64,000 nucleotides of DNA from Saprospirales bacterium (GTDB lineage: Bacteria > Bacteroidota > Bacteroidia > Chitinophagales > Saprospiraceae): contig REEI01000062.1 in NCBI GenBank assembly GCA_007695145.1, forward strand, positions 62,001 to 126,000, written 5' to 3'. Below are positions 53,150 to 63,143 of the stretch, in pieces; positions within the stretch are counted from its first letter, which is position 1, and every line of letters starts with the position of its first letter. Both the position numbers and the translations under genes were made by a program. A model generated the notes under the pieces. It did no database searches. It saw only the letters and a list, made by a program, of their open reading frames with translations, and had not been told where the DNA came from.

Positions 53150-54239
53150 TTAAACTTTTGCTGCTTCACTTTGAAGGAGAAATGCTTTCAAGAAAGGGTA
53201 AATGTCACCATCGAGAACAGCATCTGTATTGGAATTCTGATAATTGGTTCTGTGATCTTTTACCCTTCTGTCATCCAATACATAAGAGCGAATCTGTGAA
53301 CCCCATTCATTTTTCATCTTTTCAGCCTCGATCTTACTCTTCTCTGCGCGCTGTCTTTCCAGCTCTTTTTCAAAAAGCCTGGACTTCAACATTTGGATGG
53401 CCTTCTCTCTATTGAGGTGCTGAGAACGCTCTTGTTGGCATTCCACCACAATACCGGATGGAAGGTGCCTCAAGCGAACGGCTGACTCAGTTTTGTTTAC
53501 ATGCTGACCTCCTGCTCCACTCGACCTAAAAGTGTCCCATTCAATATCCGCGGGATTAACATCCACTTCGATTCGATCATCCACCAGTGGGTGAACAAAG
53601 ACAGATGCAAATGAGGTCATGCGTTTACCCTGTGCATTAAAAGGACTCACTCTAACAAGCCTGTGAACACCATTTTCTCCTTTCAGCATTCCGTAAGCAT
53701 AGTCACCAAAAATTTCAAGTTCAACACTTTTTATACCTGCTACATCCCCGTCGATTATGTTGAGCACACCTACCTTAAATCCATTTTTCTCTGCAAACAT
53801 GGTATACATTCGCTGCAGCATACTTGCCCAATCACAGGCTTCTGTACCACCGGCCCCTGCATTTATCTCGAGTATGCACCCCAATTCATCCTCAGGGTTA
53901 CTAAGGGTGGCTTGAAACTCAAGATCGTCTAGTCTATTACTGGCCAGGCGGAATTTTTCTTCTAAATCTGCCTCATTTCCTTCGCCTTCTTTAAAAAATT
54001 CGTACAAAACCTCAACATCCTCTACTGCCTCCTCAGCTTCATTATAGCCGGCTATCCACTTCTTCAAGGATTTCAAGTCTCTCAACAAATCCTCTGCCTT
54101 ATCCGGACTATCCCAAAAATTAGGATTTGAGGCAGTCATTTCCTTATCTTCTATTTGTTGTCTTCGCTCATCTACTTTAAAGATACCTCCTTAAAAGCAG
54201 CAATTTTTCACGCAGTTCTTTCAACTGATCTGCAGTCAT
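53150..54239 (-). CDS. prfB: Peptide chain release factor 2, programmed +1 frameshift
   Basis: RF2 ends translation at UGA and UAA codons. The coding sequence is split: 20 codons from the ATG at 54239 to CTT at 54180-54182 are followed by an in-frame TAA. A +1 shift that skips the base at 54179 continues in the main frame to 53150, for about 362 residues. The joint reads RRYL then [13 protein letters not shown], continuing as in other RF2 proteins. The SPF stop-recognition motif lies in [11 protein letters not shown] and the catalytic GGQ in [10 protein letters not shown]. An AGGAGG stimulator sits three bases before CTT. The internal stop is UAA instead of the usual UGA. The shorter ATG at 54139 would lose the conserved N-terminus. 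Confidence 0.95.
54177..54191 (-). promoter_or_regulatory. Programmed +1 frameshift site of prfB
   Basis: On the minus strand the site reads AGGAGG (54186-54191), TAT, CTT (54180-54182), TAA (54177-54179). This matches the known RF2 layout of an internal Shine-Dalgarno element three bases before CUU and a stop codon, with slippage of tRNA-Leu from CUU to UUU. The stop is UAA where the family almost always has UGA. Confidence 0.92.
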
Positions 54240-57131: not shown

Positions 57132-60100
57132 TTATCTTCCTCCAACTTTGATTCCACCTCCCTTACCATAGGAAACAAATTCAGGTGCAAAGTAAGATTG
57201 AGCCTTTATTATTCCGGCGTTAAAGTTTCCGGAATAAGCTACAGTCGTTCTGTATTCCAGAACAAAACTGCCTCTGGGCAGTCGCTCTATGAAGAAATCG
57301 GTCGAAGAGTCACCACTCGTAAAGTAATACAGCATACCCTCCCTGAATCGATATCCACTTAATACATTTCCAGGTTCAAGGGCTGATGGTCTGATATCTC
57401 TCAGATGGATGTATTCCATTGGCCGGTCTGAAGTAAGAATAATTCTTGCAACCAGGGTCTGCCCTACCCTAAGCATTTCTCCCTCACTCAAATTTTTGAG
57501 CACACGACCGGTAGGCCCAATTTCTTCAACCATCCATTTGCGTTCAATGGTGATGGGCAAACCTTCATCCTGGATCATTTCAACTTTCGAAATGTCCTGA
57601 AAATATTGGTGGTAAAGTGCTCCCCAGGAAATTTCAGAACCGGTATTTTCAATATCCAATCTTAGCTCGCCCCCATGACCTTTAATTTCTTCGACAAACC
57701 AAGCCGTACCCGATTGAATATTTGATTCCCGGGAAGGTAACTCCACCCCATTAACTGAAATGCGATCAATTTGAGTTCTCATTTCTGAAGGGCTTCGATT
57801 TTCAATAAAGCTTTGAAGAAGGCTTTCAATCATCCTGGAGGTGGCGGCAGTTGGTCCCCAGTCATTTACTCGACGGTGATTCAGTAACCACTGATTAATT
57901 TGAGATATTTCCTTTTCAAAACCATCGACCTTTGTGAGCAACTGAACAAATGAAACATGGGTTTCAATCGGTCTCATATGCCAGATATATGATCGATCCA
58001 TTATCAAAAACCTTCCGAGATTATCCTCGTACCTACTGTTCTCCAATAGACTCTCCGCTACAGTTTTGGCCATTTGGTTGTCTCCGTGTATTGAAAAAAC
58101 AATCCCGGCCATAGATTGCAATTGGGGACTCAACTTTGGCCAGTCTCTCTTTGCAAGAGAAAAAATCTCTTCCCACTCATCAAAATCGGTGGCCCAGGGC
58201 TGAAGTAAGGCATTGATGTACAAAAAGTGCAATAGTGATGAACCTAAAATTGGAGTTTGTCTGTCGTTTAAACTGGCATCATTGGCAAACTGTCTGCGGT
58301 AAAGACGTATTGCCTCTTCTTTCGAGTAATTCATCGCATTTCTAATCATGTTGGCAATTTCAGGATTAGAAATATCTATACCTACGTGATGAAGCCTGGC
58401 AAATCCAGTCAAAATCTCATTGGTGATGAACCAGTTAGATGGCCCTCCAGGCTGCCAGGAGAAGGAACCATCTTCCCTCTGCATTTTTTGCAATTCCCTT
58501 ACAGCCCGGTTCTTTTCCATTCTGACCTGATTGGGATTGAGCAATTCCAATAATTGTTGTCTGTTAGTACTTTGCCTGATCGCATCTCGCAACCAGGGAT
58601 TATTTTCCATATCGGTCTCCTTTAAATCGGGATTGCGCAGAAGTTCACTTTGCAGATCACCATCAGCTTTCCAATTCTCAAGATGGATTTTTACATCTGG
58701 AATGAGGTCAACAATGTGAGTCGCCATAGAATTCTTAAAAAATACCTGGAAAAATTGTAGGGTATTTCGGGCATTCTCTCCAGAGGAGTAAGGCAAGCTC
58801 CGTATTGCCAACCATAAGGGATCAGAAGTGTATTCAAATTTTGTTTTATTCTGATGAGGTCTTGATCCTTTTTCCAGAGAATACTCATTGGAAATTTTTT
58901 GGCCAGGCATTAAAAAAACCGGATGAGATTGAGTTAACCAAATATCAGAAGTAAGCACCGAAAGAAGCTTTTTCTCACCATCATATCCACCTTCCACCCT
59001 TCCGATGACTTCTATCTCCAACAATCCTATGGCATCATTATCAACCTTAAGGTCAAAATAAATTACGTCAGAATCACGTCCATCTAGTGAGAAATCCATA
59101 ACTTCATGGGTTAGCAAAAGAGATGTTAGCTCCCTACCCGTCACAGCATTTACAATCGACATTTCCAGTCTGCCGGAAATGGCTTCATCAGTAGTATTTA
59201 CAACTCTTACCGGAAACATGATTTCATCGCCCCCCATTAAAAATCTGGGCCAATTGGGCATGACAATTAAGTCGCTAGTGGTAACCGCCTCAAAAGTGGC
59301 CTTCCCGTTCATAAATTCCGGACTTAGTCCAAGAATCTGGAGTTTCCACTCAGTAAGAGCTTCACCCATTTCAAACTCCAATGAAAATAAACCCTTATTA
59401 TCCGCTATCAGATCGGGGTAGAAAAACACCGTCTCATCAAAATTCTCTCTTACAACATCCTCCTTCAACTCAGCAATTGCTTTCTCTGATGGATCCCCGG
59501 AAGGAGGCGGAGGCTCAGCGGTTCGAGGAGATTCTATTTCCATTTCCTCGCCAATCATGGCAGGTTCAGCATCAGGAGACAAGACAGTCCTATCCATAGA
59601 AGCATTTCTCTGATAAAGTCCTATAGTCTCATGATGAAAAGTTCGCTTGAGGTAAGGATAAATTCTTGAATGAATGGGGGGATCATGATCAAACCTCCAC
59701 CATCCTCTACCTGATAGGCTTCCACTGAAAGAATTCGAGATTCGAATAAAGCTTTGTCTGCTGGAGAACAAACTCAGATTCCAATTGTGGGGCAAAATTT
59801 CGTCCAATGACTTATCGTACATAGAAGCCAGAATTCTACCCTCAACCGGATTCCCCTCTTTATCGGTAATTCTAAACTTCCAATTCTGCAGACTACCAGG
59901 CTCAGGATTGGGGTTCCAATCTACGACTTCTATAGAGAGATCCTTATTTTCAAACAGGACGGGGATAAACAGTGGTTGGGAAATTAACCTACCATGTGAA
60001 TAACTAAAGAAATGCTGGTGAATTCCTCCTCTGTATTCTTCCTCAATAAAGGTTTGCAAATGACGCCCGGAATGGTTCTCATTTAGAAGGGACAATTTAA

Positions 60101-63100
60101 ATGACCCTTCTAATCCTTCTTCTAGCTGGAAAACATTTTTTAAGGGTTGAACAGACCCGATGGAAATATTTGCAGTATCTCCAGGTTGCAACCCGGTATT
60201 TGAAAGATGTACATTTAAATGCCGAATTCCCGGAAAATCCCCTTTCTTTAGGTTGCCCACCTCAAAATCGCCGGTATATAATACCAATTGATCATCTGTT
60301 TCAATATCGGTAATCACCAATCGGTAGAGCCCAGGGCGAAGTCCACGAGGAAATACTATAGGTGTGCTTCCATCTACGGTTTTAGATTGGGACATAGAGG
60401 GGGGGCGCGTAGGCCAATGTATGGGATTGCTTTCGTTCCGGTAGGGAAGGAACGGAAATTTCTTCTTATAGTCCGATTTTGAAAATAAGTAATGGGTAGG
60501 ATTTGACCACAATCTGGGAAACGGGAGGGGATCCGGAATTTGGACCTCGGAAAGTTCAATTTTCAGATTCCGCTTTAAGGGAACATCATCGAGATTGGTT
60601 ACTTCAATCATACCCATAGCCGGATGCGCTGATTCCAATAGAGAGGGCATTGAAACTTTTACCTGAACCGGTCTTTGGGAAATCCGAATAACTCTCTGCG
60701 CAGTTTGGGTTTCACCTGCCTGATCTGTAATGGTTGCATGTACTACATAAGTGAAGATACATTCGAGACATTCAGCCGCTTCTCGAGGAATTTCAGCATT
60801 GAACATTAACTTGTATTCACCATTGGGTCCGGTAGTTGCAGTACCAAAATCTATTTCCAATTCTCGGCCGAGATGAATCAGTTGGGAATATCGACCCTGA
60901 GACCATGCCGGAAAAAACACCCTGCGGGTTATTCGATAACTTACCTCTGCATGGGCAATAGGAAATCCGGCAAAAGCCGTTGCCTTTCCAATTATTTTAA
61001 CCGTATCGCCTAATTGGTATTCCTCTTCAATGGGTTCAAAAGAAGTGGTCCAGGTTGGGCGTTTATAATCTTCTACAGAAAAACTACTGCTACCCGAGTA
61101 ACCTTCTACGGAGATACTCATTCTACCCCTCAAGCCGTCGGGAGAAATAAAACTTCCCCAAAAGGCACCATAATCATTGGTCTGTTTCGTAAATCTGTGA
61201 ATTTCCCGCCTGTTGACATCCCTAACAACTACATCCACTTTTTGGTTGGTAATCGGAACCGATCCAACGTCCCCATCCGGAGAAATTGCAAGACCCTTAT
61301 AATACACTACCTGTCCGGGGCGGTATATAGAGCGATCCAGAAAAAAATCCACCCGATCTGATCTCCTCCTTATATCACTTCGGGTGGAAATAAGATAATT
61401 GTTTTCTCCGTACAATGTGTCACCTTCAACACTGATCCTTGGAAAAAACCTCAAGTTCCTGTGGCGATTTGAAAAAGTAAAAAGACCTAAAGAATCAGTT
61501 CTGCCTGCATCGACCGGGGCTTCCACAGTTATTCTTTCTCTGCGCTGATAAATGGTGTTCATCATCTCAACTTTGACATTACTCAATGGCTGCCCTGATA
61601 GACGGTCTACCACCAAAAAAGAATGATTGTTCCATCGAACATCAAAATCCACTAAACCGATATTGGATACCTGGAAGTACGCCCATTTAAAATATGGGTT
61701 GTGCTTGCTGCCTTCCCGATCAATTCCCTGAACAGTTAGTAGGTAAAAGCCACCCCCAAGTGGAGGTAAGGGAATTTCTGTACTGTGAAATTGGTGATTT
61801 TTATCATCAGGCAATATCACCTGATTGCCCTTTATTTTCTCATGATCACCAATTGCCTCTTTCAATCGCCCCCCATCAAATTGATTCCACCTGTAAAAAT
61901 CATCTCTGCTGATTCTATAGATACCGTATTCTATTTCATTGATATTTCTATATTGAAGGAAAAGTGGAAATTCGGTATGTTTTGGCAACACCCTTTCCAT
62001 GTTAAAATCCAGGTTTACCTTTAATATTTCAGTTTTTAATCTTTCTGAAAGGACTGCTCCATGACTTTTGGGCCATTTCTCGATTGCCTTTTCAATAAAT
62101 TGCATGGACTTCAAAAAGTAATCGGATGCTGGGGTGCCATCATCGGGACTGTAAGAACTGGCTTGCTGATAATATATCCGCGCGATTTCGTAGTATATTT
62201 CGGACTGGATAAAGGATTCGCTGTGCAATTCAACCATTCTGAAGAGGGCTTCCAGTTGATTTTTTTCACAATCTGCGCCTCTGCAGACAGAGGAAACATA
62301 TTTGATTCTGTGGAGATCGAAATCAGCGAGAATATCGCCTTTTTCACTTTCTTTAGCCTCGTTCAAAAATTCTTGATACAGACGAATAATTTCTACTGAA
62401 AAGTCAAGCTCATCCACTATAGAAATACCTACATCTAATTGCAGGAAATCACCATAATCACTAAACCACTTTTTATCTGAGATCAACAGCGCCGGTCGTG
62501 CAATTGGTTGCATTTGGTTGGCAGTAGTCAGAAAGTCAAGCAATCGGGACTGCATCAGATGTCTGAGGTTGGGGCGGAGTTTAATGCCAATAGAATCCCC
62601 TTCAATAATCCAACCCAGGGTTTCTATTTCCACCTCTTCAGTCAGTCTGGACTCCACTGATTTGAAATAATGTTTAGCAGCTTTTTCCAAAAATTGCCGA
62701 CCAGTCCAGGTACCTATATTATCGGATTTATCGCCTTCTACTTCTGTTCTTCTGTTGATTTGCCACATATTAATCCGATAGAAATTTTGGTAGAATTGGC
62801 CAAGGATGGAATGGAGTACTGCTGAAACAATTTCTCCACAACGGTCGATTTCACTTTCCATGAATTCGACAATACGTTCAGGTTGGTCACTGTACAATAT
62901 GCCAAGAAAATCATTTTTATAGAGTACTGCCCTCAGGTAATTTTCCCTGTTTTTATCTTCCCATGACTTTTGGAGTACTTGTTCAGTAAGATCTAATGCT
63001 GAACGATGTTTCCTTATATTTTCAAGGGAGTCGATTTCATTCCAAATTGAATCTATATTTTCCATATCTACGGACGATGGTTGGTTCCTGACCAATATTG

Positions 63101-63143
63101 TGCTAAAAAGAATGGGCAAAAGGAATAAAATGGAGTACTTCAT
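57132..63143 (-). CDS. Alpha-2-macroglobulin family protein lacking the thioester
   Basis: A 2003-residue envelope protein. The signal peptide (about 1-20) is followed by a helical TPR-like region (30-380). MG domains come next; the MG2 block DRSIYRPGQVVYYKG is near residue 600. Further sandwich domains run to about 1150. A Pro-rich spacer (about 1190-1230) precedes the A2M block with ALTEWKLQILG near 1270. The region that carries the Cys-x-Glu-Gln thioester in many relatives reads LPYSSGENARNT (about 1450), with no cysteine and Asn in place of Gln. A terpenoid-toroid-like helical domain and a receptor-binding-like C-terminus follow. Macroglobulins trap proteases, but this one could not do so by covalent capture. 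No partner PBP1C-type gene is present. Confidence 0.88.
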   Translation of the reverse strand: MKYSILFLLPILFSTILVRNQPSSVDMENIDSIWNEIDSLENIRKHRSALDLTEQVLQKSWEDKNRENYLRAVLYKNDFLGILYSDQPERIVEFMESEIDRCGEIVSAVLHSILGQFYQNFYRINMWQINRRTEVEGDKSDNIGTWTGRQFLEKAAKHYFKSVESRLTEEVEIETLGWIIEGDSIGIKLRPNLRHLMQSRLLDFLTTANQMQPIARPALLISDKKWFSDYGDFLQLDVGISIVDELDFSVEIIRLYQEFLNEAKESEKGDILADFDLHRIKYVSSVCRGADCEKNQLEALFRMVELHSESFIQSEIYYEIARIYYQQASSYSPDDGTPASDYFLKSMQFIEKAIEKWPKSHGAVLSERLKTEILKVNLDFNMERVLPKHTEFPLFLQYRNINEIEYGIYRISRDDFYRWNQFDGGRLKEAIGDHEKIKGNQVILPDDKNHQFHSTEIPLPPLGGGFYLLTVQGIDREGSKHNPYFKWAYFQVSNIGLVDFDVRWNNHSFLVVDRLSGQPLSNVKVEMMNTIYQRRERITVEAPVDAGRTDSLGLFTFSNRHRNLRFFPRISVEGDTLYGENNYLISTRSDIRRRSDRVDFFLDRSIYRPGQVVYYKGLAISPDGDVGSVPITNQKVDVVVRDVNRREIHRFTKQTNDYGAFWGSFISPDGLRGRMSISVEGYSGSSSFSVEDYKRPTWTTSFEPIEEEYQLGDTVKIIGKATAFAGFPIAHAEVSYRITRRVFFPAWSQGRYSQLIHLGRELEIDFGTATTGPNGEYKLMFNAEIPREAAECLECIFTYVVHATITDQAGETQTAQRVIRISQRPVQVKVSMPSLLESAHPAMGMIEVTNLDDVPLKRNLKIELSEVQIPDPLPFPRLWSNPTHYLFSKSDYKKKFPFLPYRNESNPIHWPTRPPSMSQSKTVDGSTPIVFPRGLRPGLYRLVITDIETDDQLVLYTGDFEVGNLKKGDFPGIRHLNVHLSNTGLQPGDTANISIGSVQPLKNVFQLEEGLEGSFKLSLLNENHSGRHLQTFIEEEYRGGIHQHFFSYSHGRLISQPLFIPVLFENKDLSIEVVDWNPNPEPGSLQNWKFRITDKEGNPVEGRILASMYDKSLDEILPHNWNLSLFSSRQSFIRISNSFSGSLSGRGWWRFDHDPPIHSRIYPYLKRTFHHETIGLYQRNASMDRTVLSPDAEPAMIGEEMEIESPRTAEPPPPSGDPSEKAIAELKEDVVRENFDETVFFYPDLIADNKGLFSLEFEMGEALTEWKLQILGLSPEFMNGKATFEAVTTSDLIVMPNWPRFLMGGDEIMFPVRVVNTTDEAISGRLEMSIVNAVTGRELTSLLLTHEVMDFSLDGRDSDVIYFDLKVDNDAIGLLEIEVIGRVEGGYDGEKKLLSVLTSDIWLTQSHPVFLMPGQKISNEYSLEKGSRPHQNKTKFEYTSDPLWLAIRSLPYSSGENARNTLQFFQVFFKNSMATHIVDLIPDVKIHLENWKADGDLQSELLRNPDLKETDMENNPWLRDAIRQSTNRQQLLELLNPNQVRMEKNRAVRELQKMQREDGSFSWQPGGPSNWFITNEILTGFARLHHVGIDISNPEIANMIRNAMNYSKEEAIRLYRRQFANDASLNDRQTPILGSSLLHFLYINALLQPWATDFDEWEEIFSLAKRDWPKLSPQLQSMAGIVFSIHGDNQMAKTVAESLLENSRYEDNLGRFLIMDRSYIWHMRPIETHVSFVQLLTKVDGFEKEISQINQWLLNHRRVNDWGPTAATSRMIESLLQSFIENRSPSEMRTQIDRISVNGVELPSRESNIQSGTAWFVEEIKGHGGELRLDIENTGSEISWGALYHQYFQDISKVEMIQDEGLPITIERKWMVEEIGPTGRVLKNLSEGEMLRVGQTLVARIILTSDRPMEYIHLRDIRPSALEPGNVLSGYRFREGMLYYFTSGDSSTDFFIERLPRGSFVLEYRTTVAYSGNFNAGIIKAQSYFAPEFVSYGKGGGIKVGGR

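Follow-up and report, generated by a model that had tools for sequence, protein, structure and literature searches.

By the textbook reading, prfB, the gene for release factor 2 (RF2), has UGA as the stop of its frameshift site because RF2 has to gauge its own level. RF2 reads UGA and UAA, RF1 also reads UAA, and only UGA is specific to RF2. What, then, would a prfB frameshift site sense if its stop were UAA? The question is raised by a Saprospirales bacterium (assembly GCA_007695145.1), of which we analyzed a stretch of 64,000 nucleotides (contig REEI01000062.1, positions 62,001 to 126,000), hereafter the window. There, prfB lies on the minus strand, its shift site ends AGGAGG-UAU-CUU-UAA-A, and RF2 carries on in the +1 frame. 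The zero frame, ORF0 (54180 to 54239), comprises 20 codons from an ATG at 54239-54237 and is closed by the stop. Toward its end lie an internal Shine-Dalgarno (SD)-like AGGAGG (54186 to 54191), a 3-base spacer UAU (TAT; 54183 to 54185), and the shift codon CUU (CTT; 54180 to 54182), on which the tRNA would slip to UUU. The in-frame stop UAA (TAA) follows at 54177 to 54179, where the other Saprospiraceae sites read have UGA. The base after the stop (+4; position 54176) is A, so that the first +1-frame codon is AAA (Lys; 54176 to 54178) in place of the GAC (Asp) of UGA-C sites. The main frame (53150 to 54178) has 342 codons plus a stop and contains an SPF motif and GGQ. The initial annotation, which had reported a full cassette of AGGAGG, 3-base spacer, and CUU (54191-54180) with an in-frame UAA and then A (54179-54176), was thus accurate, and the genome itself carries the pattern at this very position (window 54177-54191 equals contig C96:116177-116191 of G000). 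This prfB was the sole match in the genome above our RF2 cut-off; a second, weaker release-factor match on another contig, below the cut-off, was taken to be prfA.

The site has the features of prfB +1 programmed frameshifting: a zero-frame ORF0 broken by a stop, RF2 in the +1 frame, and an SD-like sequence, 3-base spacer, and CUU ahead of the stop. The stop is also one that RF2 can read, as such frameshifting requires, and UAG occurred at none of the 291 shift sites in the survey described below. The canonical UGA-C prfB of E. coli and F. johnsoniae shares the short ORF0, the SD-like sequence, the 3-base spacer, CUU, a stop, and a +1 frame that leads to GGQ; the F. johnsoniae site is given as AGGAGGUAUCUUUGAC (PMC8710568). 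The window differs in having UAA and not the RF2-specific UGA, A at +4 and not the C of a weak termination context, and Lys and not Asp as the first +1 residue. It belongs instead to the UAA type, with CTTTAA inside an otherwise kept motif, as at the UAA sites of Prince et al. 2025 (PMC12421855). UAA at the prfB shift site is a published variant and a known rarity. Prince et al. count UGA in 98.6% and UAA in 1.4% of 8,164 motif-bearing genomes, with no UAG, cite earlier work in which UGA had a single exception, and conclude that UAA is badly tolerated and has not become fixed in clades. The motif is already written YTT_TRA_C in the GeneTack paper (PMC3711429).

To characterize the site among close relatives, we examined the eight genomes of the window's genus. 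Five passed the RF2 cut-off, and the other three are drafts that are 67 to 85% complete. All five genomes with a recovered prfB have UAA at the shift site, followed by A in four and G in one, so that the +1 residue is Lys (AAA or AAG) in each. Four of the five match the Saprospirales/Saprospiraceae metagenome assemblies PLM2.Bin40, DLM2.Bin58, CSSed162cmA_225, and CSSed165cm_270 by site and first residues. In a tree of RF2 from the family, where a truncated locus (L075) bore a wrong UAA label, the UAA rows form one clade with support of 100/99. The 18-base cassette TTAAGGAGGTATCTTTAA, AGGAGG included, has no variable base (0/18) among the five members, in contrast to its flanks, where 19 of 45 bases vary in the upstream ORF0 and 16 of 60 vary downstream. 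The presence of this cassette at the same place in all five members is beyond chance. Since the cassette is invariant, the flanks are variable, and the in-frame ATG discussed below is unconserved, joining of the two frames is very probably required to make RF2. In all eight genomes we also found a weaker second release-factor match, which we interpret as RF1.

Elsewhere in the Saprospiraceae, every shift site read was UGA-C (100/100), and UAA was found at none. Of 434 relatives we kept 80 loci, four of them from genomes of the genus. The other 76 comprised 71 with UGA-C, three without a shift (L054, L057, and L067), the truncated locus L075, and L032, whose upstream part is cut and which was therefore left uncounted, although it still reads CTTTGAC. 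The 100 UGA-C units are these 71 loci plus 29 further genomes; 27 of the 29 were found through a strict-motif search and are therefore not randomly sampled, and some double counting of a few genomes is possible, given the identical proteins of L024/L118 and L048/L105. The initial annotation had named UGA in all close relatives as grounds for abandoning its reading. That pattern fails within the genus, where UAA is found in 5/5, but holds in the rest of the family.

We surveyed 395 Bacteroidota genomes with the strict pattern RGGRGGTATCTTTAA. Outside the genus, the strict UAA pattern occurred in 19 places (14 in the family genomes that were also searched and five in the phylum genomes); on inspection, one was a prfB and the rest were chance matches. 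This single further UAA prfB (L162) is in genome G580, whose genus has UAA in 2/2, and the strict motif was present in 2/79 genomes of its family. The strict pattern underestimates UAA, however, because G580's order mostly has GAGGU-type SDs. When prfB itself was read in G580 and 23 relatives, UAA was found in 13 of the 24. Most internal SDs of this order (L206-L315), at UAA and UGA sites alike, read CGAGGU or AGAGGU and precede UAU, which places the GAGG core one base farther from CUU than in AGGAGG-UAU.

We then counted stops in sets of genomes where prfB was read directly. The order of G580 contributed 106 genomes, of which 105 were over the RF2 cut-off and 103 were read (G809 and G886 were left out). 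A phylum sample, for which at least 90% completeness was requested, contributed 128 genomes, including the window's own; 126 were over the cut-off and 111 were read, the 15 skipped being from genera already sampled. Four loci were dropped as repeats of genus genomes, L032 and L075 were dropped, and a false call (L355) was changed by hand to no shift. Among the resulting 307 nonredundant units, a set deliberately enriched for UAA groups, we found UGA-C in 221, UGA-U in four, UGA-A in five, UAA-A in 26, UAA-G in 25, UAA-C in 10, and no shift in 16. The distance from shift to GGQ was 222 to 224 codons at every UAA or UGA site, the false call aside. In the phylum sample alone, UAA accounted for 18 of 100 shift sites; genus g172 supplied eight of these and the window's genome one. 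The expectation of the initial annotation that the stop is nearly always UGA, which agrees with the published 98.6%, is therefore less apt for Bacteroidota.

The UAA sites were concentrated in particular families: f17 (34/47 sites), f35 (12/50), f46 (2/5), f18 (8/16, all genus g172), and f1 (5/105, all from the window's genus). The remaining families read, many represented by only one to five genomes, had none. Genus g172 has UAA-C (Asn) at 8/8 sites (L406, L408, L411, L413-L416, and L419) and a median prfB GC3 (GC content at third codon positions) of about 0.84; a further member (L404) has no shift. Among genera with at least two sites, 45 of 46 were uniform in their stop. Thirteen of the 46 hold UAA, and in 12 of these every site is UAA (g185 is mixed).

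How did these sites arise? The fewest changes between UGA and UAA were 17 on a FastTree phylogeny of 307 RF2 rows. For the order alone, a quick IQ-TREE phylogeny (116 rows with outgroups) required 13 changes, or 16 gains under a heavy penalty on reversal. These counts are rough, since the trees are built from a single gene and their inner branches are weak. For the window's genus, the simplest history would be one change from UGA-C to UAA-purine before its species split, with retention since. Both two-step routes have living examples, namely, UGA-A (Glu) and UAA-C (Asn). UGA followed by A, which gives Glu in the +1 frame, was seen at L236, L237, L294, L412, and L420, and such sites are possible stepping stones between UGA-C and UAA-A. 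A purine at +4 follows 51 of 61 UAA sites versus 5 of 230 UGA sites. However, this pairing yields only four and two independent pairs on well-supported branches, which is too few for a test, and g172 breaks the pattern. Where the +1 residue is Lys, +4 is G at 25 of 51 sites, compared with AAG at 304 of 1,415 Lys codons elsewhere in the same genes, counts that ignore kinship.

A UAA that is stable in a genus and abundant in some Bacteroidota clades is new, as far as our literature searches go; they returned no paper on such clades, with most subscription journals beyond their reach. For one phylum, our survey qualifies the claim of Prince et al. (PMC12421855) that UAA does not become fixed in clades: every site recovered in one genus carries it, and it is frequent in further clades, though the two genome sets may overlap. 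The clades with stable UAA are natural experiments on whether it is important that the stop be RF2 specific and whether the brake can be shared with RF1. A further departure of this phylum's release factors from textbook rules is the RF1-RF2 gene conversion in Bacteroidia (PMC4530459), which concerns domain 3 of the proteins and not the shift site.

What is established for the window's site is its anatomy, the conservation of that anatomy, and that no conserved internal start replaces frame joining. Judging from sequence, we think it likely that this is a working prfB +1 programmed frameshift through which RF2 would brake its own synthesis and RF1 could do so as well. In such a mechanism, a ribosome whose P site holds tRNA-Leu on CUU would encounter UAA, and the internal AGGAGG would pair with the 3' end of 16S rRNA. 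If a release factor were late, the tRNA would slip to UUU and translation would resume at AAA in the +1 frame. RF2 would lower its own synthesis by reading UAA, and RF1 would be able to apply the same brake. Because of the known specificities of the two factors, the feedback would act on total release-factor activity; the loop would sense RF2 plus some RF1, with the RF1 part drawn only from general release-factor specificity.

One expectation counts against a working shift. On the basis of E. coli work (reportedly Poole et al. 1995), UAA followed by a purine is expected to be a stronger stop than UGA-C, and frameshifting should fall at a stronger stop. We found no compensating stronger SD or 3' structure at the UAA sites of G580's order (SD, p 0.58; 3' fold, p 0.44). 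SD pairing in family f1 differed by a tiny amount (-13.4 at UAA versus -13.0 at UGA sites, p 0.03, with five UAA units). Across all units, UAA sites had weaker SDs (-6.6 versus -11.2), a comparison that mixes clades. Decay of the shift is unlikely because a one-base deletion could bypass the stop, yet 102 of the 104 genomes read in the UAA-rich families f17, f35, and f46 retain the frameshift. Single-base-deletion mutants that bypass the prfB stop arose in P. fluorescens (PMC13245932).

The strongest competitor of feedback by both factors, and one that we regard as quite plausible if somewhat short of probable, is that the site is still a pure RF2 sensor, with RF1 too scarce or too slow at UAA and the change of stop neutral for regulation. 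Prince et al. argue that in most taxa RF2 may be the main reader of UAA (PMC12421855), on which view the loop may yet respond chiefly to RF2. Use of UAG in the window's genus, which ends 46 of 345 genes versus 82 of 450 in relatives (p 0.065), is perhaps low, which would favor this explanation. A neutral change also fits the tolerance of other residues at the joint: in the 16 units without a frameshift, this residue is D, K, Q, E, A, H, or N. Because the residue varies where there is no shift, UGA-C sites probably retain the Asp codon on account of the mRNA rather than the protein. Neutrality, however, leaves unexplained why all 100 other Saprospiraceae sites are UGA-C and why UAA is uniform in some genera. 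RF2 itself did not separate the two classes of stop. No altered recognition motif was found in the units examined, which had only SPF or SPY in both classes. With Ala246 in RF2, UAA is decoded by both RF1 and RF2, and with Thr246 mainly by RF1 (PMC5373646). The residue matching Thr246 of E. coli K-12 was Ser or Ala in the UAA clades, in favor of a brake open to both factors; since the same residues occur in UGA clades, they are not specific to UAA.

A broader proposal is that some Bacteroidota lineages have a stable two-factor sensor, in which RF1 and RF2 would together set RF2 output via UAA, mostly in the purine/Lys form. Such a sensor would have arisen repeatedly, been kept at the genus and nearly the family level, and might tie to termination demand, given the commoner use of UGA in the window's genus. 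We offer this only tentatively. We rejected the idea that UAA reflects a shortage of UGA because the pooled genus uses more UGA than its relatives: among predicted genes, 136 of 345 end in UGA in the window's genus versus 75 of 450 in relatives, a difference partly confounded by GC content. UGA shares were 44 and 57% in G006 and G002, but GC is also higher in these genomes. At a GC near 0.40, the shares were 38% in G000, 28% in G005, and 13% in G004 (2/15 genes, which runs against the trend); family loci with a GC of 0.416 had 21%. Within G580's order, stops at prfB loci (prfB included) showed no clear difference between genomes with UAA sites (46 TAA, 15 TGA, and 9 TAG) and those with UGA sites (59 TAA, 16 TGA, and 10 TAG). 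Demand for UGA fits no simple story, as more UGA should need more RF2 and UAA should yield less.

An unlikely alternative to sensing by either or both factors is that frameshifting has become constitutive, giving a fixed ratio of RF2. It could draw on F. johnsoniae, where loss of the shift carried no fitness cost in the laboratory (PMC8710568); however, the cassette has survived long divergence though a one-base deletion would remove it, with just two losses in f17, f35, and f46. We consider it very improbable that RF2 arises by internal initiation at the only nearby in-frame ATG (54139-54137), with ORF0 as a leader peptide. This ATG is present in three of the five genus members, but the other two have Ile, and the +1 stretch that precedes it encodes nearly the same protein in all five. 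Across the survey, 4 of 61 UAA units, three of them in the window's genus, had a Met within 30 residues of the start of the +1 product. AT mutation pressure as the cause of the change from UGA to UAA is less probable still. Median prfB GC3 pooled over all families was indeed lower for UAA-A (0.336) and UAA-G (0.350) than for UGA-C (0.398), but within groups the UAA units were equal or higher (UAA versus UGA: order, 0.333 versus 0.316; f17, 0.323 versus 0.324; f35, 0.394 versus 0.305; f18, 0.839 versus 0.651; f1, 0.395 versus 0.365). A sequencing or assembly error, which the initial annotation had raised and a multi-contig draft might suggest, has a negligible chance of being correct, as four other members of the genus, which correspond to metagenome assemblies from three name series, share the stop.

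The initial annotation had also singled out the retained internal SD as unusual for this phylum. AGGAGG is present, but its retention was already described: according to PMC8710568, 523 of 726 Bacteroidia have kept the shift, and the same study gives AGGAGG for F. johnsoniae and discusses an occluded anti-SD. For the window, the predicted duplex is -13.4 kcal/mol with the standard anti-SD core, which may not be the host's own; 16S genes were sought in the window's genome and 26 others, one of them a one-contig genome that is 99% complete, and none were found. The SD of the prfB site is termed hyperconserved in a published survey. In our set, 9 of 230 UGA sites had no measurable pairing to the standard anti-SD core (duplex above -1 kcal/mol) and kept CUU-UGA-C and the frame. 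Eight are from Saprospiraceae, with AAACAA (L019, L021, L025, and L044), AATCGA (L068, L074, and L081), or AAAGAA (L043) in place of the SD, and the ninth has AACCAG (L368, genome G449). The excluded locus L032 likewise has no SD-like sequence and retains CUU-UGA-C and the +1 frame. On the family tree, the SD-less sites fall in at least three separate positions; either the shift is SD independent at these sites or the anti-SD differs. Elsewhere in the window, the minus strand of 57132-63143 holds an ORF of 2,003 amino acids, which from its sequence we take to resemble an alpha-2-macroglobulin/MG-domain surface protein.
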